A program made the translations under genes and the position numbers. This document shows, in pieces, positions 4,318 to 50,095 of a stretch of 64,000 nt of DNA (position 1 is the first letter of the stretch; the number at the start of each line of letters is the position of its first letter). The DNA comes from Enchytraeus crypticus. Lineage: Eukaryota > Annelida > Clitellata > Enchytraeida > Enchytraeidae. The DNA lies in contig CAJHZI010000307.1 of the NCBI GenBank assembly GCA_905160935.1, forward strand, positions 62,001-126,000, given 5' to 3'. Under the pieces are notes generated by a model. It was not told where the DNA came from. It worked only from the letters and a program-made list of their open reading frames with translations, and did not search any database.

Positions 4318-4477
4318 GTACAGTTACACACATGACATACCGCATGTGCTACATAATTTCCTTTCTTAGATGCTGTTTTTAGTAGTTTACGTTATTTCTT
4401 CCTTTTCCTCTCCATAGTTATTAGTAATCATTGCCCTTCGTTAACGCTCCAATAGCAACCGGCGCGGATTTAAGAAT

Positions 4478-6062
4478 GTCCGATTCATAAGTCAGGTCCT
4501 AGTACCGAAATTTCAAATTATAGACCAATCAGTCTTTTAACTTGCTTCTCTAAAATATTTGAGCAAATTATTGCCAATAGAATGCTCTCTTTTATTGACC
4601 ATCACAAAGTCATTACTTCAGCCCAATATGGATTTAAGAAAAAGCACTCTACATATATGGCCCTATTAAACATGCATGATAGGGTGTCTAAAGCTATTGA
4701 CAATAAAGAATTTTGTTTGGGCATTTTCATAGATCTCTCAAAAGCTTTTGACACTTTAAACCATGAAATATTACTTAAAAAACTAGAAATGTATGGTTTT
4801 AGGGGAGTATTTAATACTAAAAAGTTACTTCTAAAAAGTTACTTAACCAATAGACAGCAATATGTGGTATATAATAATTCAGAATCAAATTATAGAACTA
4901 TTCAATGTGGTGTCCCACAAGGTTCAATATTGAGACCTTTGCTGTTTCCGATTTATGTCAATGACATATCCGAGATTAGTGAAATTCTTGCCTTCATATT
5001 ATTTGCAGATGATACAAATATTATCTGCACAAACCCTGATATTTTGAAACTAATGAATTCAACTAATACTGAACTCCTAACACTCTCTGACTGGTTTAAA
5101 GCGAATAGATTATCCCTAAATATACAAAAAACTAATTACATGCTATTTGGGTATAAATACAAATATAACAATAATTCTGAAAATTTAATTATATACATAG
5201 ATTATGATAGCAACATTTCTAGAATAGATAAGACTAAATTTTTGGGAGTGATTCTTGATGAAAAATTATCATGGCAATATCATATTTCTTATACTGCACA
5301 AAAATTATCAAAATCCATTGGATTAATCCATCGGGTTAAAAATAAGTTACCTAAACATTGTATGTTAAATTTATTCTACAGTCTAATATATCCGCATCTA
5401 ATTTATTGTAATATTGTTTGGGGGAACGCTTCTAAAACCTTGCTCAACGAATTGATAGTACTCCAAAAACGAGCAATTAGAATAATTCAACATGCAGAGT
5501 TTAGTAGTCATACGAACAATATATTTAAAGAACTTAAAATTTTAAAGTTAAGTGATATTCATAAACATTGCTGTTGCGTATTTCTGTATAAACTTATTCA
5601 TAATGATATGCCTTCATGTTACAACTATTCGTTGCTATTAAATAATGTTGTAAATTCTGTTTATAAATTTCGACAAGTTTCGGAATTTACTATACCATCG
5701 TTCAGAACCCTCTGTCGCGAAAAGCATACAAGGCCCTAGATACTGGCTATCCCTTCCACCTAATTTACGATCATCTCGTTCCGTTAACTGTTTCAATATT
5801 AATCTTCGTCAGTACTTATTAAATAGTTATTAATGATACTGATCTTAAATGTATAATTATGCCTACCTATTATCATTAATTTTCTTTATTTTGAATTTCT
5901 TTATTTCAATTCTTTAATTTCTACTTTATATTTTCGTTTTAAGTTCACCATGGTTCACATTTAATTGTGCTCACTTATTGCATTTACTTGTTTGTTTGCA
6001 TTGCTTGTGAACTGTACAGGGTTGAATGACCCTTTTTGGTGATCTAATAATAATAATAATAA
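4478..6062 (+). mobile_element. CR1/Jockey-type non-LTR retrotransposon, 5' truncated
   Basis: The reverse transcriptase starts inside the element (frame from about 4479: CPIHKSG, SNYRPISLL) and runs to 5739. [14 protein letters not shown] and FADDT are visible, the last intact, so this is a rather young copy. The usual GPLLF is RPLLF. A frameshift near 5739 separates the last ~30 codons (YWLSLPPNLRSSRSV, to about 5831). The 3' UTR ends in AGGGTTGAATGACCCT (a small hairpin) and a (TAA)n tail, the 3' form of CR1/Jockey-like elements. No endonuclease domain or ORF1 is present. Confidence 0.9.
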
Positions 6063-10719: not shown

Positions 10720-11310
10720 ATGAAATAAATGTAACGATATTACATGAAATAAATGTAATGACATTACATGAAATAAATGTAATGACATTACATGAAATAA
10801 ATGTAATGACATTACATGAAATAAATGTAATGACATTACATGAAATAAATGTAATGACATTGCATGAAATAAATGTAATGATATTACATGAAATAAATGT
10901 AATGACATTACATGAAATAAATGTAATGATATTACATGAAATAAATGTAATGACATTACATGAAATAAATGTAATGATATTACATGAAATAAATGTAATG
11001 ACATTACATGAAATAAATGTAATGATATTACATGAAATAAATGTAATGACATTGCATGAAATAAATGTAATGATATTACATGAAATAAATGTAATGACAT
11101 TACATGAAATAAATGTAATGATATTACATGAAATAAATGTAATATTACATGAAATAAATGTAATGACATTACATGAAATAAATGTAATGATATTACATGA
11201 AATAAATGTAATGATATTACATGAAATAAATGTAATGACAGTACTTGAAAGAAATGTAATGACATTGCATAAAATAAATGTAACGACATTAGGCCTACAT
11301 GAAATAAATG
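10720..11310. repeat. 24-bp satellite array, open on both strands
   Basis: About 24 copies. Unit = ACATGAAATAAATG + TAATGACATT. It contains the palindrome ATGTAATG-A-CATTACAT. Copies alternate GACATT/GATATT over 10860-11130 (48-bp higher order). Because the unit is 24 bp, one frame on each strand stays open (M-T/I-LHEINV on plus). Edge copies are the most worn. No gene signals. Confidence 0.9.
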
Positions 11311-15528: not shown

Positions 15529-15624
15529 CTACGACATTGCACCGAACACTGGGTTGTGTCTACAGATGGACGGCCCATGCTCATCATAGTCAGCCTTAGT
15601 GTGGCACACAGAATAGAACTCAGG
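15529..15624 (-). CDS. ACTR3: ARP3 exon 11 (residues 388-418 and stop)
   Basis: Encodes [20 protein letters not shown] and [11 protein letters not shown], then TAG at 15531-15529. Acceptor TTGTAG. The intron sequence just upstream is a B-type SINE whose T/G-rich tail ends 38 nt before the splice site. Confidence 0.97.
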
Positions 15625-18600
15625 CTACAATCAACACATACATACAAACATACAAACAAATAAACACACATTATAGTGAAATGATCAACTGTGTCGATAT
15701 CTATCACTTTTTAATACTACATGTTTAAACCGTTAGGCAATTTAGACCATTTTCCGTATAACCAGTCCAGTGAATGTTCGAGATTTTACTTTCAGATAAT
15801 CGCGGTTGGAATTCGAACCCACGAGGGTTCAATTCACCTTAGGATCTGTCATTTAAATCTTCATGACATTACCCCTATGCTATTAAGACATGCTATTAAT
15901 TAATAGACATTCTATTAATAATGCTAATTCATATATAAGCATACTTATAAGACTAGTTGACAAAGTTTAGTTGATAAAAATGTGGTACATTCAAAATATA
16001 CTATATCTCTAGAACGATATCAGAATACCTGGCATGAAGAACACGTTAAAAATTGAACAGTATAACAAATAGTGCTAATTGATATCATGATTTCCATGTG
16101 AGTCGAACTTTAAAGTTATTAAACAAGTTCTTAAAACTTTCAGTAAGAGCAATGTTTGCATCCTTGCCCCAACTATAATTAGTACACATATAAAGTGAAA
16201 CACACTTTAAAATAGGTTTAGCGCACAGCTCAAATAAACATATTGAAAATTGTGACATACCGTTGAAGCAAGCATACTTCCACCGAACCACACTGCATAT
16301 CTCTGCATCGAATGAGACACTACATTGACATCTATTGGCTTCGGCTGTCACACAATCAAGAAGGAATCAATTTATCAAATCTTGATTTGGCATTAAATAG
16401 GTTCATAACTTCAACAACATCAATCCCCCAATTTGTCGTAACAAATCATTACACAAATTATAATATAAATTATTACACTACACAGTAATAATGCAACTAA
16501 AACACTACTCATATAATTACTAAATACATTTGGCCTTTGCATCATAAAGGTTAAACATGTCCAAAATTTATAAAAATTTAGCAGACAAACCCATAACTCT
16601 GTGTATTTGCTTTACTCCGTTTTATTGTGTACTTTATTATTTAGTTGTGCATATTTTGCCTTCAGTTGACAAAACGAGAAAGTCATATCTTTGCACGTTG
16701 CATCTCTTATCAGTGATTAAAGTGGGGGAAGGAGGGGGGGGGGGGGAGAATGTGCAGGGAAATTCAGTTCCACCAGTGGTCATTTTCTCTGAAATGAGTT
16801 CCCCAACTAGGGACCCATATTAGATACTACGGCCCTGTACAAGAGAAGGGGGACCAATAATTTAGAAAGTTTCACTTACTTCCTACTTTAACCACTCATT
16901 TGAAGTGTCTATAATAAGATCTGAATTTAAATGGAAAACTAAACTACAGCAGCACACTGAAGTACCTTGAGCCTTCCCCCGCTAAGTTCCTCGCTGATCT
17001 TCAGCCTGTTGTCGACTGATCTCTTCACATCTCGCTGCAAGCGTCTGCCAAAATCTCTGAACATCGTTGAACCTCCGGATAGCACAATGTTCTGCAGGAA
17101 AATTAAAACACAATCAATGCTTAGCAACATCAACAGATTTGAGTAGTAGTGTATAAAGAAATAGTAGCGTGTTAATAAATGGTTCTCTCTGTTGTCTGCC
17201 AGTGCCATTAATTTTATTGAATAACAGTGTATTCATGAATTTACCTGTGTTGTGTCCGAGTTTCTGAAGGATAGAATAACCGTGGACTGCACGTGTCGTA
17301 AAAGGTCACAAAAACACTATTATATAAACCAATTTCAGAAAGGGCATTCAGTTCTTGAGCGCCTAGGCTCCAGAAATTGCTACAACATATTCTAATCCTG
17401 ACCCTAGTTAAACTGGGATTCAATGGAAGATGAGGACGATGATGAGTATGTTCATGTAATATTTTAGTTGGATTAACTGTAAAAATTTAATTTAAATTCA
17501 GTTTTAAAATTATATTATTGAACACTCATAACTCTATATACATGTATATTAAATACGGCATATATATAAAACTTTTATAATTAAAATTTGTAAAAATAAC
17601 AATTTTGACATCTCTCTATAAGTTGCAGATCTATCTATATCTATATGTTGCTTGTCAATGAAAAATATATCCTGTGCTAGAATAATTTAATTTATATTCA
17701 ATAAATGTATGAAACACTCCACAATTATAGTAGAATTGTTCATTGCATTAAATTGACATTATAATTTATTATTATTATTATTAATAGGAATATTATATAG
17801 TAGTGTCTTGTTTGGAATCTTGATGAAATGCTCAGCAGAAAGAAACTGAAAACTATTCACTTAAAACAAAATCAGTACTTAGGATATACATTTGTCAATT
17901 TTTAATGGAAACAAAGGGGGCCAACTGCCAAACTATCTTGGAGCATATAAAATCTTGCAAACATTGTTGAAATAAAAGAAATATTGAAACAAAAGAAATC
18001 TTTTTAAAGAAATCTCATTAATTAAACAAAAAAAAAGGATTCAGACCTTGTACAGGCCACGCCTAACGTCTATGGGGCAGTTCTGTATCACCTCGTCCAC
18101 TGTCTCCGAGATAGGAACCGTGAAGTCTGGGTTAGCAAACTGAGTACAGAAACACACATAGAAGTAATTTAAATAAATATGATAAAAATATTAACTGATG
18201 ATGTGATGATGTCAGGGAGGTCCCCACAGCACACATCACTACAAATTAATTCACCCAAACCAATCTGCAAAAGAAATGTGCTTAGAAGTCCTTGTAGGCA
18301 TTAGAATTATAATCCTTTTTTAATATTAAAATGATAACACGCATTGCAGTGAAAAGACAGAGAGGGTTTGAGACGATTTGTATTTGTAGAAGAGGATTTG
18401 TATCCCGACCCTCTTTAAACTGGGATACAGGGGAAGATGATGATGATGATGATAAAAATAATAACGCAAAAGAACAGACTAACGTCGTTGAACTGCTCAA
18501 AACCATACACTTCAAGTCATACACGTTTCAAATCATACACCATAAACGTTTCAGATGTCAGCACCATCAATACTTAGTATTTTAATTGTGTCCTTACAAT

Positions 18601-21600
18601 ATGATCTGGTATAGGATAAGCTGAAATGCTTTCACAACTGGATGCTACAGCCTTTAACTTTGAAATAAGCCTGTCTCAAACTCTCAAAACGGCAGGGTGT
18701 TACAATCATTCACGACAACACTGAGCACTAAGAAGCCAAAAATCAATCTTCAAAACATTTAAAAAATCAATTAGTAAGTCAGCATACCTCCGGATGAAAG
18801 AAGATCTCTGGCCCCAGGAAGCGCTCGTATCCCACGTCCACTGAGAACGGCTGCTTGCTGATGGAATTGACGCTCTCGTGCTTCTTGATCCACTTGCTCG
18901 GCTCAGTGTCGTACTTGGTGAACTCCTTCACGATGTCCGGGCAAACGTACGAGTACTTCTCCTGCAGGTAAATAAGTCCACATCATTACGGCGGTAATAT
19001 TTAAGTCTTCACTAATCATTTACTACAATAGAAAGAGTCAATATATTAAAATATAACGATATGCATCGTACTAAATGCTATTATGAGTTTATATGTATCA
19101 ATACAGTTAAAGTATTATGAAATGTTTGAAAACCCATCCTTCTATCACTCTCTCTCCCTCTCTCTTTCATTAGTGCTCTTTCAAGCAGCAGGTTCAGGTC
19201 ACGTTCTCTGAAAAGTTCTCTATCGGTCAACGAGTTCTTCCCAACATAAGCCTCAGTCTTCATCAATCCATAATGTTACCATGAACTGGAGATAAAAATC
19301 GTTTCACTAACGATTTTAAAATAACTTTGAATTAAGTGTATATCAAGCCCTAAAAATGGTTGGATGCTTCCATCGTTCAAGACAAGACTGAGCGCTATAT
19401 CAATCCTCAAAACATGTGAGAAATCAGTTTGTAAGTCTGCATACTACAGGATGGATATGCACAAGGTTTATTATTAGTATACATCACTATAGTAAAATAA
19501 AAAATGTCACAGCTATCACAACATATTTTAATTTTAAAATATATAATTGAATTAATAATAATAATAAATAAATAATTAACATCAAAAGTCTTAGGACTGG
19601 AGAAAATCTATTCGTATTCCGACCCTGGTTGAACTGGGATTTAAGGGAAGATGATGATGATGATATCATAGACTTAATTATAATTATTTAATGAGAAACT
19701 GATAACTTTAGTTTAAATTAATTTACTGTTGAGTAATTAATTCAATTACATAATTTTTCAAATCGCATATAATTTAAGTTAAAAACAAATTGGTGGCTAT
19801 TTTTTTAAATAAAATCTTCAAATGAATAGAATAGAAATAAATGCAATATCATTTCATGAAAATTACTAACCAGAAATCAGCATGAAGAACAGAAAAAATA
19901 ACAGAATAACGAAGACTAAACGTACACTGAATGTGTTTCTCTTAGAATTGATAATCCTATGATAACAAAACTTACGATAAATATCAAACCCATGAGATGC
20001 AGATGTTGTATTTCATTACTCTCAAATTTAAAAAAAATAAACAACAATAATTACAGTATGAAATAAGTTTGAAGTCTATACCTTGATGGCCTTGGCAGTC
20101 TCCATAGATTGCTCAGGTGGAATGTTGACCTCTCTCTCTCTCAACAGCTGCTGAATGAAGTAGGTTATATCTCTACCAGCTATAGGGATGTGCTTTATAC
20201 AACTCCCTATAACATAGCCTTCCGCCTACAATACAAAACATTCATGTTATAATAAAATTTCAATATTCTTTTCATCATCTGACAATCATATCAGTGATCA
20301 AACAAATGTCATATATAAATTTTAGAATAACAGGAAATCATAGTAAATTGAGTGAAATTTGAAACAAAAGAAATATTTCTAATACGCAGTCATATTTCTC
20401 GGCGATGGCAATAGTACTAAATATGGCCAGAGTCGGTAAGATAGCCGATCCCAGATCAGTATGCGTGGGTTAAAATCCTGAGCTCGCCAGTCACTGATAT
20501 CACTTTGAGCGATGAACATAACATCAGCTTTACAGCCTCTATTACAACAGGCAGTCATATTTCTTATGCACTAGTACTGAATAATTGCTGAAACGTCATA
20601 GTTTTCTCTGATCGATAGAAGAACTATTCTACATGTAATGCTACATAAAGAAACCAACAAGTCTAAGAAATATCACGGGAGAGCGATGGTTAGCGGGCAC
20701 CACAAGATAGGAGACAGTAATATACGAGACAGATACATGTATATAGGCCTATATAGTATGTAATATTTACATACATGTATATACAAGCATGTATATGTAT
20801 GTATGTGTATATTACAAAGCTGGTAAAGCTAATGTTAACATCAGTTTCCTCACTCGAAAGCGATGTCAGTTACGGGCGAGCCAGCTTTTGAACACCGCAC
20901 ATACTGATCCGCGGTCTATGTATATATGTATGTATGTATGTATGTATATATATAAGTATGTATATATGTATTAAACTGAGAGACCACTAACCACTGGTAT
21001 GACGTGAGTGACACCGTCACCAGAGTCTATGACAGTGCCTGTCAGCGTACGTTCAGACATCTGCTTAGAGGTCCACGAGGCTGCCAGCGCTAGAACAGCC
21101 TACAAATAAAGAAAACCACCAACATCAACATCAGACTGAAAAGGCACATAAAAATTTGAGCCAATTAGAATTGAAAGAAAATGGTATATACAATAACTTC
21201 AATAGGCAAAATGTAGCCAAATTATTTAGCTTTCATATTGTTTTTCTATAACAACAATACATCGTGAATAAGTTCTAAATCAAGAGACTATTTAAATAGT
21301 CTTTTCAGTAACTGGAAGTGTTCAACGTACAATGCATAAAAATTAATACATCTATAGTTAAATATATGGCTATTAAGTATAAGTAGTTTTAATATTCAGT
21401 CTACGTAGGAGTTCAATTGAATTGTTAGTAATTGTTAATAATTGTGAATGGATACACATATTATGGGTATCCATTCATTCATTCTCACACTCTCACTAGA
21501 CAAAATTGACAACAGTTATTAACAATTTTATATCATTAAGAAAATTTTACGATAAGTTATGAATGTTTAGCATTAAAATAATTAGCATTATTACATTTTA

Positions 21601-24600
21601 ATAAATAACACAATTTAATAACATAAATATAATACCAACTTAATAATTATTATTCATATTATTAAGAATACTAACATTACTATCACTACTGTTTGTTAAG
21701 CATTACTGTTAATGCTAAATTCGTAATATAAAACAAATCTAATTGGGCACAGACCTGCACGGCAATGTAGAGACCAGGCACGTTGAAGGATTCAAACATA
21801 ATCTCAGCAGTATACTCCCTGTTCTCAGGAGTGTTGAGAGGCGGCTCAGTCTGCAATACCACGAGAAGATACGTTAAACATCAACAATAATTTTATATAA
21901 TTAATCATTCCGCACCCGTTCATGTATTAATATTAAAAATTATAAACCTTAAATAAGCAAGAGCCTCGTCAGCAGCTCTCAAAGAGAAATTTACATTTTT
22001 GAACAGTAGAATTTTGCCAGAATTTTACTGAACAGCTAAAACTGAAAACTAAAATATTATTCAACAATGAACAGTAAAATTGAAAAATGTATCAGATTGC
22101 TGCCAACTGGCGATATTAGCAAAAAATGTCATTAACCATGGAAAGGATTGATAGAAATTTGCCAGGAACCTCTCTGGCAGCCTTAAAGACAGGTCACTGA
22201 CCTTGACACTGCTAATAATTTGTCGGTGGTTAAGTTTTTTTCGCTAAGAACTTGTAATTGTACATACCACAAAGAGCCAGGAATAATAAAAAATTGAATC
22301 ACAATTATTATTATAAACTGACTTGATTAATAATAATAATAAAGGTATAACGTCTGTTTCCTCATAGAAGGATGATGTCAGGGAAGTCAGGGATTGGGTT
22401 TGTATAGTGCATATAATATATATTTGTAGGACCTGATCAGAATATTGCACCTTCTAAACTACTCATTAATAATAATGAACTGCAGTGGGGAAGTAAACTT
22501 AAGTATTTACGCATTGTTTTTTAATCGGGTAAATCTCCTTCTGTGGATCTATCTGAATGCAGAAGGAAGTTTTTCGCAATTGTTAATATGATATTAAAGC
22601 TAAATCATGTAATGAAGTGGTTAAGTTACATCTTTTGGAGAGTCATTGCTTACCTATTCTATTATATTGTATTGAATCAATTAACTTAAATACCTCTCAG
22701 TTAAATCTACTAAATAGTTGGTGGAACTCTATATATAGGACTCTTTTTGGATATAATAAATGGGAATCAGTTAAGGAACTTGTACATAATTTGGGGAGAA
22801 TTGATTTGAAAAGTTCTGTGCAACTAAGAAAACTATTGTTCATAAGGAAATGTCTAAGTGATTACTGCAGCAATTCTAATCAATACGTGTTTAGCATTAT
22901 GCTAAATTTTGCAAATAGACCTTACTGCTATTCTCTCTGTGTTAATAACTCCTGTGACATTGATTGGTCAGTTTTATCCATTAAGGAAGCTGTTCGTAGA
23001 AAATTTGTTAGCAGTGTGGAATAGTCACTCTTGAGTGCTTCACTGATAGTTTAACATTGTTTCACTCTCAGATACTTGTTTGCATCAGCATTGGTTGCTT
23101 GTTGTGTATGTTTTGCACATTTTTGTAATTTCTTTCTTTATACTTTGTCTGTGGATTTATTCACGACTAAATAAATAAATAACTAAATAATATAATTATC
23201 CAATTAAAATTTCATTCACTTTATTATATTTTTATTATTCTTATTTCTTATTACATTTATATGACATAAATACAAGCATCCATTTCAGCATGCAAACCTG
23301 CAAAAAACAAAAACCTGCATTGAAAGACAAGTAAAAAGTAAAAGTGCACCAGCGGAAGAGTGTAACTAAGTGATGAACTAACGAGAAGGAAGTAGTGATC
23401 TTCAGGCTCCGCCCTCAGGTACTTAAAGATAGCTTGCTCCATGAATCTCTCCATCAGGTCCCAGTCCTCCACGATACCATGACGAATAGGCCACTATAAG
23501 CAAACCACACAAACCACACTTAAACACTATACCATGACGAATAGGTCACTATAAACAAACCACACTTAAACACTATACCATGACGAATAGGTCACTATAA
23601 ACAAACCACACTTAAACACTATACCATGACGAATAGGTCACTATAAACAAACCACACTTAAACACTATACCATGACGAATAGGTCACTATAAACAAACCA
23701 CACTTAAACACTGTACCATGATGAATAGGTCACTATAAACAAACCACACAAACCACACTTAAACACTATACCATGATGAATAGGTCACTATAAACAAACC
23801 ACACTTAAACACTGTACCATGATGAATAGGTCACTATAAACAAACCACACAAACCACACTTAAACACTATACCATGATGAATAGGTCACTATAAACAAAC
23901 CACACTTAAACACTGTACCTCAACAAATAAACAAACAACACAAATCACACCTAAACACTATACCATGATGAATAGGCCACTAGAAACAAACAACAAAAAC
24001 CACACCTAAACATTTCTTCTTCTTCTTCAGTTCACTGCCAAGTTGCAGGTTCAAAATACATATTCACACTCAAAGTCTGCTTTCTCGCTTCATAAGAGCA
24101 CTCCTTAGATCAACAAGTTTATCCCTTTACAAAGTCTATGCCTTATCCATACCTTATGTAGCCTATAGCTTAGGAAACTTATGGCTTCTGAGGTGGTTTC
24201 CTGTTGCCTTCCTACCTAAACACTATACCTTGACAAATACGCCACTAGGAACAAACAATACGCACAGTCAACAGACATTACTTATTCACCGACTGAAGCT
24301 AATTTCATATCACATTTTATACATTTAGAACACTTAGAAAACTGAAAATTAGTTAAAGGACAGCATACAGAGTAACGTTATGGCAATATTTTACATTTAA
24401 ACTGTGCAAGTACAACTAACAAAAATTAAGGTAATTGAAAGATCTGAACATGATACGAGATGACCTCTCTTTGATATGAAACTTTCGGACAAAAGTGAAT
24501 AGTTCCGCTCTCAAACTTTCCTACATTAGGCGCTTTGTTTGAGTTGTAACAAGGCAAAAACAGGCTTCAAAATTCAAAATTGTAATATATAAAATTAAAC

Positions 24601-27600
24601 ATTGAACTACAGAATTTTTTAACAAACCTTAACAGAATATGTAGAAGCTTCAAGCGCCTCATCTCCAATGAAGAAATCAAGATCTTCTACACCCTTTCCC
24701 AGTCGTCTAATAGCCTGGTCTCCTACCTTAGCAGACTCCTTGATTGCAATACAGGATGGAATGATATACTGTGGCTCAGTATTTCCCGCATAACCCATCT
24801 TAGTATATCTAAACACAAAAATTATTCATTTATAAAAAAATTAATCATCCAAAACATGCCTCATGGTGTTGCCTAGTGAAGCTCTATGGCATATAGTTCA
24901 TCCCATTGTCTCTATTCTCATTTTTTCTTTATATCTGCATAAAAGCATGACGATATCGCACAACATCTGTCGCTAATTTTTGTCATCCACTAATTCATAC
25001 ATTTTTATCTATTCATTGAACAGAAATTAAACAATAATAAAGAACAGAAAAGTTTTACATCTGTTTACATACCATACTGCACAAATACAGTTACTTACAG
25101 GTCTTCAAAAGATCTTTAAATAAGAAAACCTAAAGATTTAAAGCAAATCCTTAAACATCTCAACTTTCAGTCTCTCATAATTCTTTCCCCTATATTTTTT
25201 AATTCAAACGTATCAAAAATTACAAATTACACCCAATTAAGTGCCTGTTTCTATACCACAAACACACTGTCAGTACTGCAAAGTTTTTAGCCTGTGATCT
25301 TCTGCATATCAGGCAACATTGGGTCATTAATTATATAATCACTTTCAAATATTACAGAAATAACAGAGCTAAGTATTACATTGGTATTTTAATGCAGGTG
25401 TCGTCAGCGATTCAGATAATCACATACACTTTTGATCATGCATATGATTTCAAAGCAGTCAGTTTTAACAACATTACTCACTTGAAAATTTAAAAAAGTT
25501 CATGAAATTGTTAACTATATACAATCAAATCTGAACAAAAAAGCAAAATCAATGCTTTCTTATTATTCAAATGCTAGCCTTACATATTTTTGTCAAAGTA
25601 ATATTTATGTGACGAATACAGTAGGATTCGACGACTTCAATACATATCAAGCCCACTAGAAGAGATTACATGAAGTTACAGGAAGTCCTCCATACTATCT
25701 TTGCTAACCAGTTTTCTTTTCGACCAACAGGTTCTCCCACTGCTGCCCTTATCACTCTCTTTCACAAAATATCCTCAATACTTGAAAACCAAACGTTTGT
25801 TGGAGTGATAGCTCTCGATTTCAGTAAGGCATTTGATACCGTCAAACATTCACAGATAATTTCAAAGCTTTGCAGGCTGAATATCCCTGATTCTGTTAAT
25901 GGGTGGATTGCTAGCTTCTTATCTGACCGTACTAATACGACCATCTTTGAAGGTCAATTATCCTCTCCTAAACAATAAATGCAAGTGTTGTCCAAGGCTC
26001 TGCCATTCATTGGTTCTCCTGTATTTATTGTTGTTTCCTCTGATCTAAGGACATTGCATTCAGCAAATTCTTTACTAAAATTTGCTGATGATACATATCT
26101 CATAGTACCATCATCACATTTCCATCTAACTGAAGTAGAATTAATGAACTTAGAAAGATGGGCTTCAGTAAACAATCTACAGCTAAACAGAAATAAATCT
26201 AAGGAAATAATCTTTAAGTCACCTAGCTTTAAGTGTCAAACAATTGAATTGCCCTATTTAGATGGAATAGAACGAGTCTCAAAATCTCGAATGTTTGGGA
26301 GTCACGATTTTGTGTAATTTTTCCTTGTCTTCTGATATATCCAATCTTATATCCTCATGTTCGAGTAATATTTTTGCTTTATACTCCTTGCGCACAAAAG
26401 GTCTATCAAATGAATTCCTTCAGATAGTGTTCCAGGCTTCTACTCTTAGTAAATTACTCTATGCCTCACAATTTTGGTGGAGGTTTACTTCTCCTGACGA
26501 CAGAAGCCGCCTAGAAGCATTTTTAAGATGTGCAAAAATGGCTGGTTTTTATATAACAAAGAGCAAACTTTTAAGAATCTCTGCCTGTCAGCTGACAGTA
26601 AGCTATTTAGCTCATTCTGTAATAATCCTAATCATTTGCTGGCTCCGCTTATGCCCTCACTAAACCAACATTCATTCCAAACCCGCAGAAACATTGCAAA
26701 AAGAAGTTACGCCATACCAACTAAGCGTAGCTCTTTGAATGATAAAAACTTCATCCCCCGCTTGACACTAAGTGATGCTATGAAACTATAGCTAATTTAA
26801 TCTTGGTTTAAAATGCATTGTTAGTATTTTGCATGACTGTGACATTATCTTCTCGAATAATGTAGGCTAATCATGTTCGTATGAAACCTATCTGCGGCTG
26901 TTAGATTGTTTTGAAATAAAAGCAAGATTTATTATATTTTAAGATCAAGCTCAGTGGGAGGACCCTCCATCTTAAATACCATTTAAACGCACTCCTTTCG
27001 TGGTTTTGATATTATCATTAGAATATCGTATAATGACTGTTATGAAACATTATCTAGGACTATTGTTATCTTCGTATTATTGAACTTTCTATTTGCTTTT
27101 TGTTCCAACTATGTTTGTACGTTTTCTGCGGTATGTCAGATTTCAAGTAATAAACGAATATATATATATATATATATATATTATATTATATATATATTAT
27201 ATTATATATATATAATATATATATATATATATTATCTCTCCTTCTGGCGTATACGTAGATATCCAGTTATAACATTGCTTTAGATGCATATACAGAGTAC
27301 AAGAAAGATTCCTACTAAGCCACCGCAATTCAGGTACGTTCATGTAACTCCTAAGATTTATGCATCTCCATCCAGTAAGGATGTAAAATATATGCAGCTA
27401 GTTTACAGGTAACGCCTCCAGTAAAACCATGTACAATAAAATACTATAAAACAATTTATAATTGCGAATAAAGCATAACCTACGAATATATAAATTCAGC
27501 TCCACATCAGTATCAAAACATTTAAATAATGAAATTGTACTTGCACCTATTTTTAAAAAATTCGTCGAATAATTTAACAACTTGAATAAAATCGAGGCTT

Positions 27601-27653
27601 AGTCATTACCCGGTTCCATTGTCGATGACCACTGCTGGCATACGTCCTGCCAT
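15529..27653 (-). CDS. ACTR3: Actin-related protein 3 (Arp2/3 complex subunit), 11 exons
   Basis: Joined exons (minus strand): 27653-27610, 24808-24628, 23493-23383, 21850-21755, 21099-20992, 20225-20082, 18961-18788, 18139-18047, 17091-16966, 16344-16261, 15624-15529. They give 1257 nt, 418 aa plus TAG. ARP3 is the actin-fold subunit that, with ARP2, forms the nucleus of a branched actin filament in the cytoplasm. Visible marks: N-terminal [45 protein letters not shown], the second phosphate loop DSGDG (residues 169-173), [35 protein letters not shown] and the terminal NPVFGAMS. Human ARP3 also has 418 residues, so no exon is missing. The start has A at -3 and G at +4. All introns are GT-AG; intron 1 is phase 2, the rest phase 0. 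ATTAAA (minus strand, 15213-15208) is a possible poly(A) signal. Certain as ARP3; UTR limits unknown. Confidence 0.98.
15663..15893 (-). mobile_element. SINE family B, copy 2, in ARP3 intron 10
   Basis: Same sense as ARP3. Tail GTGTGTTTATTTG and the following TGTA-rich tract lead directly into the exon 11 acceptor. Its antisense strand contains an open frame shared with the other B copies, which is a by-product. Confidence 0.85.
16261..16344 (-). CDS. ACTR3: ARP3 exon 10 (residues 360-387)
   Basis: Encodes [20 protein letters not shown] then GGSMLAST. Acceptor GACAG, donor GTATGT. Intron 9 upstream (16345-16965) contains a G/C homopolymer tract near 16727-16747. Confidence 0.97.
16966..17091 (-). 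CDS. ACTR3: ARP3 exon 9 (residues 318-359)
   Basis: Encodes [20 protein letters not shown], then [20 protein letters not shown] and LK. GGS is the adenosine-site loop shared with actin. Acceptor CTGCAG, donor GTACTT. Confidence 0.97.
17236..17450 (+). mobile_element. SINE family F in ARP3 intron 8
   Basis: Head GTGTCCGAGTTTCTGAAGGA, middle GAGCGCCTAGGCTCCAGAAA, end GACCCTAGTTAAACTGGGAT and a GAT-rich tail. The middle ~60 bp present in other copies is missing. Antisense to ARP3. Confidence 0.75.
18047..18139 (-). CDS. ACTR3: ARP3 exon 8 (residues 287-317)
   Basis: Encodes [20 protein letters not shown] then [11 protein letters not shown]. Acceptor ACTCAG, donor GTCTGA, phase 0 at both ends. 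Confidence 0.97.
18199..18285 (+). repeat. Repeat family C in ARP3 intron 7
   Basis: GATGTCAGGGAGGTCCCCAC, AGCACACATCACTACAAATT, CAATCTGCAAAAGAAATGTG match 36090-36170. Confidence 0.7.
18350..18455 (+). mobile_element. SINE family F 3' part in ARP3 intron 7
   Basis: GACAGAGAGGGTTTGAGACG, TATCCCGACCCTCTTTAAAC, TGGGATACAGGGGAAGATGA and a (GAT)n tail. Confidence 0.7.
18788..18961 (-). CDS. ACTR3: ARP3 exon 7 (residues 229-286)
   Basis: Largest internal exon but one (174 nt). Encodes [20 protein letters not shown], the variable [20 protein letters not shown] and [18 protein letters not shown]. Acceptor CTGCAG, donor GTATGC. Confidence 0.97.
19587..19658 (+). mobile_element. SINE family F 3' part in ARP3 intron 6
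   Basis: TATTCGTATTCCGACCCTGG, TTGAACTGGGATTTAAGGGA, (GAT)n tail. Confidence 0.65.
20082..20225 (-). CDS. ACTR3: ARP3 exon 6 (residues 181-228)
   Basis: Encodes [40 protein letters not shown] and METAKAIK. Acceptor TTGTAG, donor GTATAG. The GC-rich flanks seen in exon 5 are absent. Intron 5 upstream holds an inverted pair of D-type SINEs. Confidence 0.97.
20423..20535 (+). mobile_element. SINE family D in ARP3 intron 5 (plus)
   Basis: AGAGTCGGTAAGATAGCCGA, GGGTTAAAATCCTGAGCTCG, CAGTCACTGATATCACTTTG. Antisense to ARP3; inverted partner at 20820-20925. Confidence 0.75.
20820..20925 (-). mobile_element. SINE family D in ARP3 intron 5 (minus)
   Basis: Plus strand shows GCTAATGTTAACATCAGTTT, CCTCACTCGAAAGCGATGTC and TACTGATCCGCGGTC. 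It is flanked by (TATG)n runs. Confidence 0.8.
20992..21099 (-). CDS. ACTR3: ARP3 exon 5 (residues 145-180)
   Basis: Encodes [20 protein letters not shown] then [16 protein letters not shown], which carries the second phosphate-binding loop. Acceptor TTGTAG, donor GTTAGT. The exon is clearly more GC-rich than its introns. Confidence 0.97.
21447..21478. repeat. Short inverted repeat in ARP3 intron 4
   Basis: GAATGGATAC and GTATCCATTC around an 11-bp AT-rich spacer, then (CATT)n. In intron 3/4 region of ARP3; no known role. Confidence 0.6.
21755..21850 (-). CDS. ACTR3: ARP3 exon 4 (residues 113-144)
   Basis: Encodes [20 protein letters not shown] and [12 protein letters not shown]. Acceptor TTGCAG, donor GTCTGT, phase 0 at both ends. 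Intron 3 upstream (1532 bp) contains an antisense LINE fragment. Confidence 0.97.
22440..23195 (+). mobile_element. LINE 3' fragment in ARP3 intron 3
   Basis: C-terminal part of a non-LTR reverse transcriptase [22 protein letters not shown] upstream, then the open frame 22617-23024 with [36 protein letters not shown] and LHNLGRID-like blocks, a 3' UTR and an AAATAAATAAAT tail. Antisense to the host gene. 5' truncated; palm motifs absent. Confidence 0.75.
23383..23493 (-). CDS. ACTR3: ARP3 exon 3 (residues 76-112)
   Basis: Encodes [20 protein letters not shown] and then [17 protein letters not shown]. Acceptor TTATAG, donor GTTAGT, both phase 0. Its 5' edge and acceptor are the source of the minisatellite filling much of intron 2 (see 23474-24008). 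Confidence 0.97.
23474..24008 (-). repeat. Minisatellite made from the ARP3 exon 3 splice acceptor
   Basis: Units of 46 bp, some 55 bp with a 9-bp insert (ACCACACAA). Each contains, in gene sense, TTTGTTTATAG followed by TGACCTATTCGTCATGG, i.e. the acceptor and first codons of exon 3. The exon itself is copy 1. Eight copies have TGA in place of the TGG of W76; one is degenerate (23916-23960), and the next (about 23961) keeps TGG. A further worn copy follows the inserted SINE (24213-24265). Confidence 0.9.
24008..24215 (+). mobile_element. SINE family G inserted in the ARP3 exon-3 minisatellite
   Basis: CTGCCAAGTTGCAGGTTC, ATAAGAGCACTCCTTAGATC, TTATGTAGCCTATAGCTTAG, TTCTGAGGTGGTTTCCTGTT. Flanked on both sides by ACCTAAACA from the minisatellite, probably the target-site duplication. 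CTTCTTCTTC marks its 5' side. Confidence 0.8.
24628..24808 (-). CDS. ACTR3: ARP3 exon 2 (residues 15-75)
   Basis: Acceptor TTTAG at 24813-24809; donor GTTTGT. Encodes [20 protein letters not shown] and the following KVGDQA and [10 protein letters not shown] blocks that are near-invariant in ARP3. 181 nt, ending in phase 0. Confidence 0.97.
25640..26935 (+). mobile_element. Degenerate LINE in ARP3 intron 1
   Basis: Reverse transcriptase with [34 protein letters not shown], then (after a frameshift at about 25970-26012, where [11 protein letters not shown] is readable) [40 protein letters not shown], and a second shift to [20 protein letters not shown]. At least three frame changes or stops mean it is dead. 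Resembles Jockey-superfamily elements common in marine invertebrates. Antisense to ARP3. Confidence 0.85.
27159..27233. repeat. (TA)n microsatellite in ARP3 intron 1
   Basis: TA run with ATTATAT interruptions, downstream of the intronic LINE. Confidence 0.9.
27610..27653 (-). CDS. ACTR3: ARP3 exon 1 (residues 1-15)
   Basis: Codes [14 protein letters not shown] plus two bases of G15; donor GTAATG, phase 2. DNGTG is the first nucleotide-phosphate loop of the actin fold. ARP3 proteins usually have a Cys where Asn stands here (DCGTG), so this copy looks more like conventional actin at that position. Intron 1 (2801 bp) holds a LINE and a (TA)n tract. Confidence 0.95.
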
Positions 27654-29549: not shown

Positions 29550-31060
29550 TTTTTTCTACGCTATCTAAAAAAGCACTCTACAGTAGACGCAATTTTCAGT
29601 AGTTTAAATATGATACTTTCTCAGAAAGGCTATAAAATCATACACTGGGACTCTTTCTAGACCTGAGCAAAGCATTTGACACGGTCGATCATGACATCCT
29701 CCTAAATAAATTAGAAAATTATGGTATAAGAGGTTTACCACTCAGTTGGCTAACCTCGTATCTTACAAATAGACAGCAATATTCAGTTATAGGCGACTCA
29801 GTTTCTTCCACTAAACCAATCTCAGTTGGAGTTCCACAAGGCTCTATATTAGGGCCATTACTTTTCCTAATATATGTCAATGATATCCATCTTTCTCCAA
29901 ACGTTTTGCTGATGATTCAGATGCCTTTATTAAGGGAAATAACTTGATAGATTTGTTTGCATGTGCCAATTCGGCAAGTAAAAAAATTTGTAACTGGTTC
30001 CAAAGTAATCGTTTAACTATTAATACAGCTAAATCAGCATATATTGTTTTCTTTCCGTCTACCAATGACGAAGCGTATATACGTGATAACAATTTTACAT
30101 TATTTATGGACCATAATCAAATTGCAAGAGTTAATTGTATTAAATTCCATGGTGTAGAAATTGACGAACATTTAAGTTTTAAAAAATCATATCGAAAAAA
30201 TTACGAAAACTGTTAAAAGTGCTAACAGATTACTCTTTAATCGAAGAGAATTTATACCAATGTCCTGTCGCAGGAACTTGTATCTCTCTATGATATATTC
30301 TTGTGTAAGATATTGCATTGAAATTTATGGTTATGCCACTTGGAATGTTTTATAACCACTACATATTGCTTGTAACAGAGTTCTGCGAACCTTGCAGGGA
30401 AGACATAGTTACTGTAATGTTAAAGATCTTTATGTTTCTTATGATATTCTGCCAGTTCATCTATTGCATAAATACTGTATGGCCAAGTTGATTCATAAAT
30501 GTATTAGCAGTAATCTACCTAAGTCTACAGTATTGGCTAATATGTTTGATCTCAACCACTCTAACCATAATTATTCAACTAGACTGCTTGACTCCAACTA
30601 TCTGTTTAAAAAATCCAATGTGACATTCTATAAATCTCATGTAAATGAGGCATGTATGGACTGGAATAAAAGTCCACCAATATTACGCAAAATCAAATTG
30701 CTACCAACCTTTTCTAGAGTATTTAAACAGTATTTATTAGAAAATTTGTCACAATAAGAAAAATTGTTTTTTTTTCTCATCCAACTTCTGCTTTGTTGTA
30801 ATTTAAAATCTTCTATGATTGACACTTTCACTCTTTTATTTTGATTAAAAGTTTGATTTAGACATGTGGGACGCTTGTTAGCGGGGTGATTGATATCCGG
30901 GTGTCAACTCGATAGGGTATTATGCTCCCTCATTGATGGCCTGGTTTTTGCATGTATTAGTGTGCCTGTCTTTGCGTTTTACTTTGTACCTTTATGCTAT
31001 TCGAAATATGTTGACTGTCGTGCTGTGTGATATGTGAACAAATAAACATATGTTTCTATT
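29550..31060 (+). mobile_element. Degenerate CR1/Jockey-type LINE between ARP3 and Rab5
   Basis: Visible blocks in shifting frames: KKHSTVDAIFS-like start, [54 protein letters not shown], then a shift, WFQSNRLTINTAKSAYIVF, and a C-terminal frame at 30392-30757. The 3' UTR contains a word set (TCAACTCGATAGGGTAT, GATGGCCTG) that recurs at 48200-48290. It belongs to the same broad type as the 4.5 kb LINE and is 5' truncated. Confidence 0.85.
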
Positions 31061-33359: not shown

Positions 33360-34585
33360 GTATATACATGTATATATATATATTTAAATATATAAATATA
33401 TTTGATATACATTTTGTTGCAGCCGCATTCCTGACTCAGAAGGTCATACTGTCAGACGCTATAGTAAAGTTTGAGATCTGGGACACTGCTGGACAGGAGA
33501 GATACCACAGTCTGGCTCCCATGTACTACAGGGGCGCACAGGCTGCCATCGTTATGTATGACATCACCAGTAGGGTTAGTATGATATCACCAGTAGGGTT
33601 AGTGTGACATCACCAGCAGGGTTAGTATGATATCACCATTAGGGTTAGCATGACATCACCAGTAGGGTTAGTATGATATCACCAGTAGGGTTAGTGTAAC
33701 ATCATCAGTAGGGTTTGTATGATATCACAACGTTATAGTAGGTTCTTTTCTTACAGATGTATAGTACTGTGTCTCATTGCATGGCGATCTCAATGCTTTT
33801 GCTTATCGAATAGCATTGCATGTTGAATATCATGGCATGTTGAATATCAATGCTGGTTGAATATCCTTGCATGTTGAATATCATTGCATATTGAATCTCA
33901 TAGCTTAAATTTTTGGCTCATTTAGTTATACGCGTGGCACATTGATAGTGCTAAAGAGGTTCCTTGCTTTGCTGATGTTTTTGTAGTTTTAAAATTATTA
34001 TTTATCGCTATGGTAAATAATAATCGCTGCCTTTTGATGGCATAACTGCTGCCTTCCAGCACCTTGGGGTAATTATTCAATCAAAGCTCTAGACTTTCAG
34101 TCTTTCAAGGTGGTCGCCCCTACAAGTACTAACCAAGCCATACATACATACATATTATATTTTTAATTACATATAAATACATATGTTAATCATATTATAC
34201 GTTACATTGCTAGTCTTCTTGCATATGATCTCATAATATTATCAAATATCTTGCTCGCGTTGATGTTAAATTTTGATTTCATATCATTGAATGTTTCTCA
34301 TGTTAATATATCAATAATTGCTAAATTGTGATTGTGTTTCATAGGATAGTTTTAATCGAGCTCAAACGTGGATTTCAGAGTTACAGAAGCAAGCCAGTCC
34401 TAATATACTCATAGCTCTGGCTGGTAATAAAGTGGACTTGGAAGAGAATAGAACAGTCAGTTCAGATGTTAGTATCCAGCTATGTTATTTCTTTAATACT
34501 CAATTTCTTTAATACTGCTTAACAGTTTTCTCGTATTATGTACTGTTTTTATTCTGTTGTGTCTGTTGTTGTTGTGACTGAAGAC

Positions 34586-45354: not shown

Positions 45355-45589
45355 AGACAGTGGGATATACAGAGAGAGAGACAGTGGGACAAACAGAGAA
45401 AGACAGTGTGATATACAGAGAGAGACAAGGGATATACAGAGAGAGACATGGGATATACAGGGAGAGACATGGGATACACAGAGAGAGGCAGTGGGATATA
45501 CAGTGAGAGAGACAGTGGGGTATACAGAGAGATAGTAGGATATACAGAGAGAGACAGTGGGATATACAGAGAGAGAAAAGGGGATATAC

Positions 45590-45623
<34 letters not shown>

Positions 45624-46069
45624 TGGGGTATACAGAGAGAGACAGTGGGACATACAGAGAGACGGTGGGATATACAGCGAGAGAGACAGTGGAATCTACA
45701 GAGAGAGACAGTGGGATATACAGAGAGACAGAGGGATCTACAGAGAGAGACACTGGGATATACAGAGAGAGGCAGTGAGATATACAGAGAGAGATAGTGG
45801 GATCTACAGAGAGAGAGAGTGGGATATACAGAGAGAGACAAGGGATATACAGAGAAAGAGACAGTGGGATATACAGAGAGAGACAAGGGATATACGGAGA
45901 GAGACAAGGGGACATACAGAGAGAGAGAGTGACAGTGGAGTATACAGAGAGAGACAGTGGGATATACTGAGAAATAGTGGGATATAGCCTACTGAGAGAG
46001 AGAGAGAGAGAGAGAGAGACAAAGAGAGAGAGTGAGACAGAGACAGAGAGAGAGACAGTGGGACAAACT

Positions 46070-49584: not shown

Positions 49585-49703
49585 GTTCTGTTGATGCTGT
49601 GAGAATTGCGATCATCTGAACAACAAAATATGTCTAAAAGAATGAGCTTTCACTGACAGAATGTGACAGGATCTCTCGTGAAACTTATATTATTCGTTAG
49701 GCA

Positions 49704-50095
49704 TACTAAGTAACACAAGTAATACTAAGTAATACTAAGTAACACAAGTAATACTAAGTAATACTAAGTAACACAAGTAATACTAAGTAATACTAAGTAA
49801 CACAAGTAATACTAAGTAAAACTAAGTAATACTAAGTAATACTAAGTAACACAAGTAATACTAAGTAACACAAGTAATACTAAGTAACACAAGTAATACT
49901 AAATAACACAAGTAATACTAAGTAATACTAAGTAAAACTAAGTAATACTAAGTAATACTAAGTAACACAAGTAATACTAAGTAATAGGAAATAACACTAA
50001 ATGATGGCAAGGAATACCAAGTATCACTAAGTAATACTAAGGAATACGAAGCAGCACTAAGTGATACTGAGTAATGCTAATAATTGTTAAGTAAG
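49704..50095. repeat. Minisatellite of AAGTAATACT words
   Basis: 29-bp units (AACACAAGTAATACTAAGTA + ATACTAAGT) give way to 19-20-bp units and then decay; about 18 copies of AAGTAATACT. It ends at a family F SINE. Confidence 0.85.

Follow-up and report, generated by a model that had tools for sequence, protein, structure and literature searches.

The window analyzed here, a stretch of 64,000 nucleotides, carries a gene for ARP3 whose second intron is about half filled by copies of the start of the following exon. This raises the question of whether such a row of decoy acceptors serves to adjust ARP3 output or is neutral. The first-pass annotation had left both readings side by side.

The array at the end of ARP3 intron 2

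The spliced translation of the gene (Table 1) matches Arp3 in the PDB over 418/418 residues (E 9.3e-259), and its coding length of 1257 equals 3 x 419; exon 5 ends at 20992 (CCAGTG/gttagt, the slash marking the splice junction here and below). In a genome search, all 10 hits of at least 70% identity fell in one contig (C224), the 15-residue exon 1 giving none, and hence a single ARP3 locus was found. On the minus strand, the first base of exon 3 is 23493, in the acceptor context ...TTTGCTTATAG/TGGCCTATTCGTCATGG. Its donor lies 111 nt from this acceptor, and the nearest decoy acceptor lies 55 nt upstream.

TRF reported a tandem repeat at 23509-23995 with a 46-bp period and 10.2 copies, each 46-bp unit consisting of approximately 22 nt of the intron end and approximately 24 nt of exon 3. 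Aligning the acceptors gave 10 decoys in intron 2 upstream of exon 3, in line with the roughly ten near-identical sites that had been proposed to precede the true one. Eight consecutive copies carry TGA as the first codon, as had also been described (first "exonic" bases at 23548, 23594, 23640, 23686, 23732, 23787, 23833 and 23888), and the two outermost carry TGG (23979 and 24244). Counted outward from exon 3, the acceptors are spaced by 55, 46, 46, 46, 46, 55, 46, 55, 91 and 265 nt. Sequence, TRF and spacing thus agree with the earlier description of a 46/55-bp unit that carries the exon 3 acceptor and takes up about half of the intron. Three details had to be amended. An eleventh copy lacks an acceptor. 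In place of the TTTATAG acceptor given for the unit, the two outer copies read TTTCTAG or TTCCTAG. Finally, the extent given to the array, 23474..24265, does contain the repeat copies but also an interspersed repeat that is no part of it. This repeat, which we call SINE-like as judged by reading, sits between the two outer acceptors, within their spacing of 265; it has a TTC-rich end. Together, the array and the SINE-like repeat occupy 772 of the 1134 nt of intron 2.

In a comparison with the exon 3 edge over -16 to +24, the eight TGA copies agree at 35-37/40 positions and the two TGG copies at 35/40 and 31/40. The AG is kept in all 10 decoys found by the scan, while an eleventh copy has lost its site together with the surrounding bases. 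The four decoys nearest to exon 3 are identical to one another over 40 nt. Decoys 5-8 differ from them by one or two bases, and here the alternation of 46 and 55 bp forms a 101-bp double unit; the ninth decoy is 4 bases and the tenth 8 bases away from the inner four (32/40 for this outermost copy). The array therefore has a concerted core and diverged edge copies, and it is graded, the most diverged copies lying deep in the intron and the identical ones adjoining exon 3.

When the genome was searched with the array (23495-24010), two matches were found at the ARP3 locus and one at another place, L010, which was rejected as a relative, its repeat being a separate 13-bp unit. Because the search matched nothing besides these, the array most likely arose locally, by expansion from the exon 3 edge at this very locus. 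The acceptor alignment and the locus-limited match thus support the earlier proposal that this edge was the seed.

A reading-frame test gave a premature stop for each of the 10 decoys, caused by shifted frames and additional stops. With a TGA copy as the acceptor, the stop falls at residue 76, exactly as the first-pass annotation had predicted. With the first codon of these copies treated as sense, the next stop came at residues 100-117, and the two TGG copies stopped at residues 95 and 86. The TGA stops are therefore redundant, since every decoy stops prematurely even with a sense first codon. Judging from the pattern, the eight contiguous TGA codons would most simply go back to a single G-to-A change in a founder of the inner block that was amplified with the block. 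On both counts, the suggestion that the built-in stops are meaningful in themselves is not supported.

Table 1. Features of the ARP3 and RAB5 loci in the window
Feature	Positions	Strand	Description
ARP3 (ACTR3)	15529..27653	-	11 coding exons, 418-aa protein; from exon borders and spliced translation
ARP3 exon 2	24628..24808	-	Donor AAG/gtttgt, phase 0
ARP3 intron 2	23494..24627	-	1134 nt
ARP3 exon 3	23383..23493	-	First codon TGG (W76); true acceptor gcttatag/TGG
Outermost, most diverged copy	24214..24265	-	TTCCTAG/TGG; 31/40 identical to exon 3 edge
SINE-like interspersed repeat	24010..24213	.	Splits the array; 89-94% matches at 40 or more further genomic places
Older copy	23951..24009	-	TTTCTAG/TGG edge; from acceptor alignment
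Degenerate eleventh copy	about 23906..23950	-	Acceptor lost; 91-nt gap between acceptors
Inner block of array	23509..23905	-	Eight 46/55-bp copies of acceptor and ~24 nt of exon 3, first codon TGA in all
RAB5 exon 3	33423..33574	+	Donor AGG/gttagt; second boundary array of the window
23-bp array	33551..33728	+	Repeats the 3'-terminal 18 nt of RAB5 exon 3 with the donor GTTAG (5' mirage)

Arrays at other exon edges

A second array of this kind lies at a donor of the RAB5 gene, which is on the plus strand and matches Rab5C in the PDB (E 4.2e-77). It holds six decoy donors (33598, 33621, 33644, 33667, 33690 and 33713). GT is kept in 6/6 of them, and each would give a premature stop in the frame as read. 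The window contains further large minisatellites at 10720-11291, 45355-45986 and 49703-50084, with 24-, 22- and 10/29-bp units and no identified exon attached. Three open frames (4474-5736, 25625-26660 and 29636-30754) resemble non-LTR reverse transcriptases by eye, the last two being split across several frames.

Exon edges were then surveyed in the Ras family. From 151 reported matches, 70 exons were taken, namely the best 30 as loci and 40 of the next 46. The six left out (the RAB5 exon of the window, C380, C739:215348, C788, C313 and C356:1935110) followed no stated rule; the five besides RAB5 have stop codons within the match, as do some of those retained. These 70 exons provided 107 edges, 57 acceptors and 50 donors, which are probable splice edges because the domain match ends inside the domain there. 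TRF flagged 31/107 edges, and visual inspection showed 12 acceptors and 3 donors whose repeat unit includes both the splice site and part of the exon. Four of the flagged Ras loci (L071, L063, L064 and L031) and exon 2 of L089 were not counted, no exon piece being demonstrable in their units. Comparing exon pieces with the adjoining intron by BLAST gave matches at 14/107 edges, versus 9/321 with introns of other loci. This added one acceptor, L047, where the copies span the boundary, and one donor, L018. L035, with its repeated matches to L037, was not counted as a boundary array, and neither were L068, for which BLAST gave three overlapping short hits, and L031, with two on the donor side. 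In total, boundary arrays were present at 13/57 acceptors and 4/50 donors of the Ras family. When exons were clustered at 80% identity and L047 and L018 were excluded, the counts were 9/39 and 3/34, respectively.

Relatives of actin were sampled in five stretches with 14 exon matches, some of whose edges may fall inside exons. Here, arrays were seen at 3/14 acceptor-side edges and 1/14 donor-side edges (4/28). The loci L088, L089 and L090, which are ARP1- or ARP2-like by reading of their translations, also bear boundary arrays (31-bp, 87-bp at a donor, 74-bp and 112/162-bp), and the feature is therefore common to three actin-related genes. For the genes of the window, TRF gave 1/20 edges in ARP3 and 1/6 in RAB5, of which four exons were found. 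Overall, 23/161 edges, or about one in seven, carry a boundary array (17/84 acceptors and 6/77 donors), counts that rest partly on by-eye reading of alignments, include some close paralogues and have probably missed old arrays.

Mirage minisatellites and the host

Repeats of this design are called mirages, a name reportedly owed to Canestro in 2002. Mirage minisatellites are tandem duplications of an intron-exon boundary and have been described in lancelets, in Adh3, the globins Gb6 and Gb9, and troponin C (PMC3087553, PMC3902484); in the portions of these papers accessible to us, the second one mentions troponin C and compares the PGBD5 repeats with mirages, and mirages are reported not to disturb splicing. 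As far as these portions go, the lancelet mirages and the ARP3 and RAB5 arrays have in common that tandem repeats span the boundary at the 3' or 5' end of an intron and that many units retain the AG or GT. The lancelet arrays likewise show a homogenised core with distinct edge copies, their units ranging from 10 to about 160 bp. By its structure, as far as sequence can tell, the ARP3 array is thus a mirage minisatellite. Unlike the lancelet mirages, it is found in an annelid and not in a cephalochordate, together with arrays at so many of the edges examined. Occurrence in cephalochordates, however, describes where mirages have been seen and lies outside the structural definition.

The identity of the host was read from its mitochondrial genome. 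Contig C802 (15,205 bp, of which 15,000 were read) is mitochondrial, and the protein genes found on it share a strand and follow the order cox1, cox2, cox3, nad6, cob, atp6, nad5, nad4L, nad4, (gap), nad1, nad3, nad2. Ten frames were checked with Pfam, nad6 falling below the curated cut-off (28 versus 33.2 bits); nad2 matched only a family shared with nad4 and nad5 and was assigned by its place and length, nad4L was named by eye, and cox1 came from a separate search. The gap between nad4 and nad1 is presumably where the rRNAs lie. The derived features of annelids listed in the accessible part of PMC2639372 are nad6/cob after cox3, atp6 between cob and nad5, interchanged nad5 and nad4L/nad4, and nad3 between nad1 and nad2. 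All four are present in C802, which indicates that the host is an annelid, and a lancelet host, to which the mirage papers had pointed, was rejected on this gene order. In annelids, mitochondrial genes are on one strand according to the part of PMC4505326 available to us. Genome searches for the GFP family (0 matches) and for mollusc haemocyanin were empty, weak results given that no control genome gave matches. Short COX1 fragments occur in contigs C361, C424, C796, C373 and C166 of the same assembly (G000) and are probably nuclear copies of mitochondrial DNA.

Two further systems are worth comparing. The units of a minisatellite in human IFI6 (6-16) form multiple splice sites of one exon (PMC4526556); according to the accessible text, these differ from the ARP3 copies in being donors rather than acceptors and are reportedly used, giving isoforms. 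Earthworm metallothionein genes resemble ARP3 in that they are annelid genes with intronic minisatellites, but the mean units of 178 and 181 in two clones are longer, and a splice-boundary origin of the unit goes unmentioned in the accessible part of the paper (PMC12783039). In the searchable literature, which leaves most subscription journals outside, the term mirage was found among papers on amphioxus or minisatellites only in PMC3087553 and PMC3902484. Searches of the same scope for annelid boundary arrays, for boundary minisatellites and for decoy sites with nonsense-mediated decay, insofar as the sources were accessible, gave nothing closer, the annelid result resting on the titles and abstract openings of 20 of 57 papers.

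Origin and effect of the decoys

In our view, the ARP3 array is probably a near-neutral mirage and one example of what happens at many exon edges of this minisatellite-rich annelid genome, with the exon-proximal site being the one in use. A tandem duplication would have taken in the end of intron 2 together with ~24 nt from the start of exon 3, and slippage or unequal exchange would then have multiplied the unit and made its copies partly uniform. Judging by the reading frame, the exon-proximal acceptor should be the one spliced, because the ARP3 protein results only from that site. From what is established about splicing, exon definition acting from the donor of exon 3 probably makes the spliceosome skip the decoys, and transcripts in which a decoy is occasionally used would be removed by nonsense-mediated decay. 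Some leak toward the decoys is plausible because the eight near ones differ so little from the true acceptor.

The same near identity to the true acceptor, the AG kept in the ten decoys found and the premature stop that each of the ten gives would also suit an array that tunes ARP3 output, with the copy number setting the share of decoy splicing and the stop at residue 76 sending this share to nonsense-mediated decay. We consider tuning very unlikely. Boundary arrays are frequent at other sampled genes and hence not special to ARP3, which weakens a role specific to it; amplification of a single mutation explains the TGA block most simply, and its stop is redundant; and the lancelet mirages, in the accessible text, are reported to leave splicing undisturbed. 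Moreover, conservation of the decoy AGs is not raised. Among the decoys of 13 arrays (12 from the Ras family plus ARP3), 64/77 retain the AG; the scan behind this count overlooks copies that have diverged beyond alignment and picks up a small number of low-complexity windows by chance, which would inflate AG loss. Where an array has at least 3 decoys (nine arrays), the AG was mismatched at 16/142 positions versus 148/1207 at 17 neighboring positions. No selection preserving or removing decoy AGs was thus visible in these nine arrays, since the AGs mutate like the bases around them. Of the two alternatives left by the first-pass annotation, the neutral one is therefore better supported. Tandem arrays are also error-prone in assemblies, but an artefact that invented or collapsed the ARP3 copies is hardly credible in view of the graded divergence among them, the nested interspersed repeat and the recurrence of the same design at many loci with different sequences.

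It is possible, and we propose this tentatively, that a mutational process linked to acceptors makes the 3' ends of introns preferred starting points, for example through pyrimidine or TTGA-rich tracts that promote slippage. Minisatellites with a period of at least 15 covered 1425/14260 far-intron test positions versus 16/107 Ras edges, the latter being an automatic set different from the hand-counted arrays; without clustering and over both sides combined, the ratio of edges to far positions was 1.4 (95% range, 0.8 to 2.2). Between -100 and -30 of acceptors, the cover was 0.32 versus 0.12 far from edges (one-sided cluster bootstrap P about 0.005, 39 clusters). Donors showed no clear excess, with 0.16 near the site (P about 0.24, 34 clusters) and 0.05 at the site versus 0.12 far away. 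The counts of the Ras sample point in the same direction, acceptors carrying arrays more often than donors. However, the excess is weaker at the acceptor itself (0.24 versus 0.12, cluster bootstrap P about 0.05), the test is confined to a single gene family, and old arrays escape TRF. Taken together, these comparisons indicate that a minisatellite-rich genome accounts for much of the pattern, with some preference for acceptors on top, and the excess near acceptors means that calling the arrays pure bystanders may be too simple. An acceptor-linked process concerns the formation of arrays and is compatible with the near-neutral mirage reading. A bolder version, in which acceptor-biased duplication is ongoing and independent of that in lancelets, places decoys at approximately one acceptor in five and, through leaky use feeding nonsense-mediated decay, affects the expression of genes such as ARP3, ARP2, ARP1 and the Rabs, seems unlikely to us.

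Mirages have so far been, in the searchable literature, a feature of a handful of lancelet genes, and they now extend to several genes of an annelid. This points to mirages as a more general consequence of genomes rich in minisatellites. They also amount to a natural experiment on splice-site choice, in which many true sites compete with near-identical copies some tens of bases distant and related exons differ in whether they have an array. One such exon, at L066 (contig C165; Rab14-like by reading), has a 42-bp acceptor array of 15 copies at about 590-1217 in coding orientation, with 13-14 decoys. At L072 (contig C569), a related exon 93% alike over 162 nt was searched for an array, and none was found there. 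The sequences of this pair suggest that a boundary array can be gained or lost while the exon itself persists.
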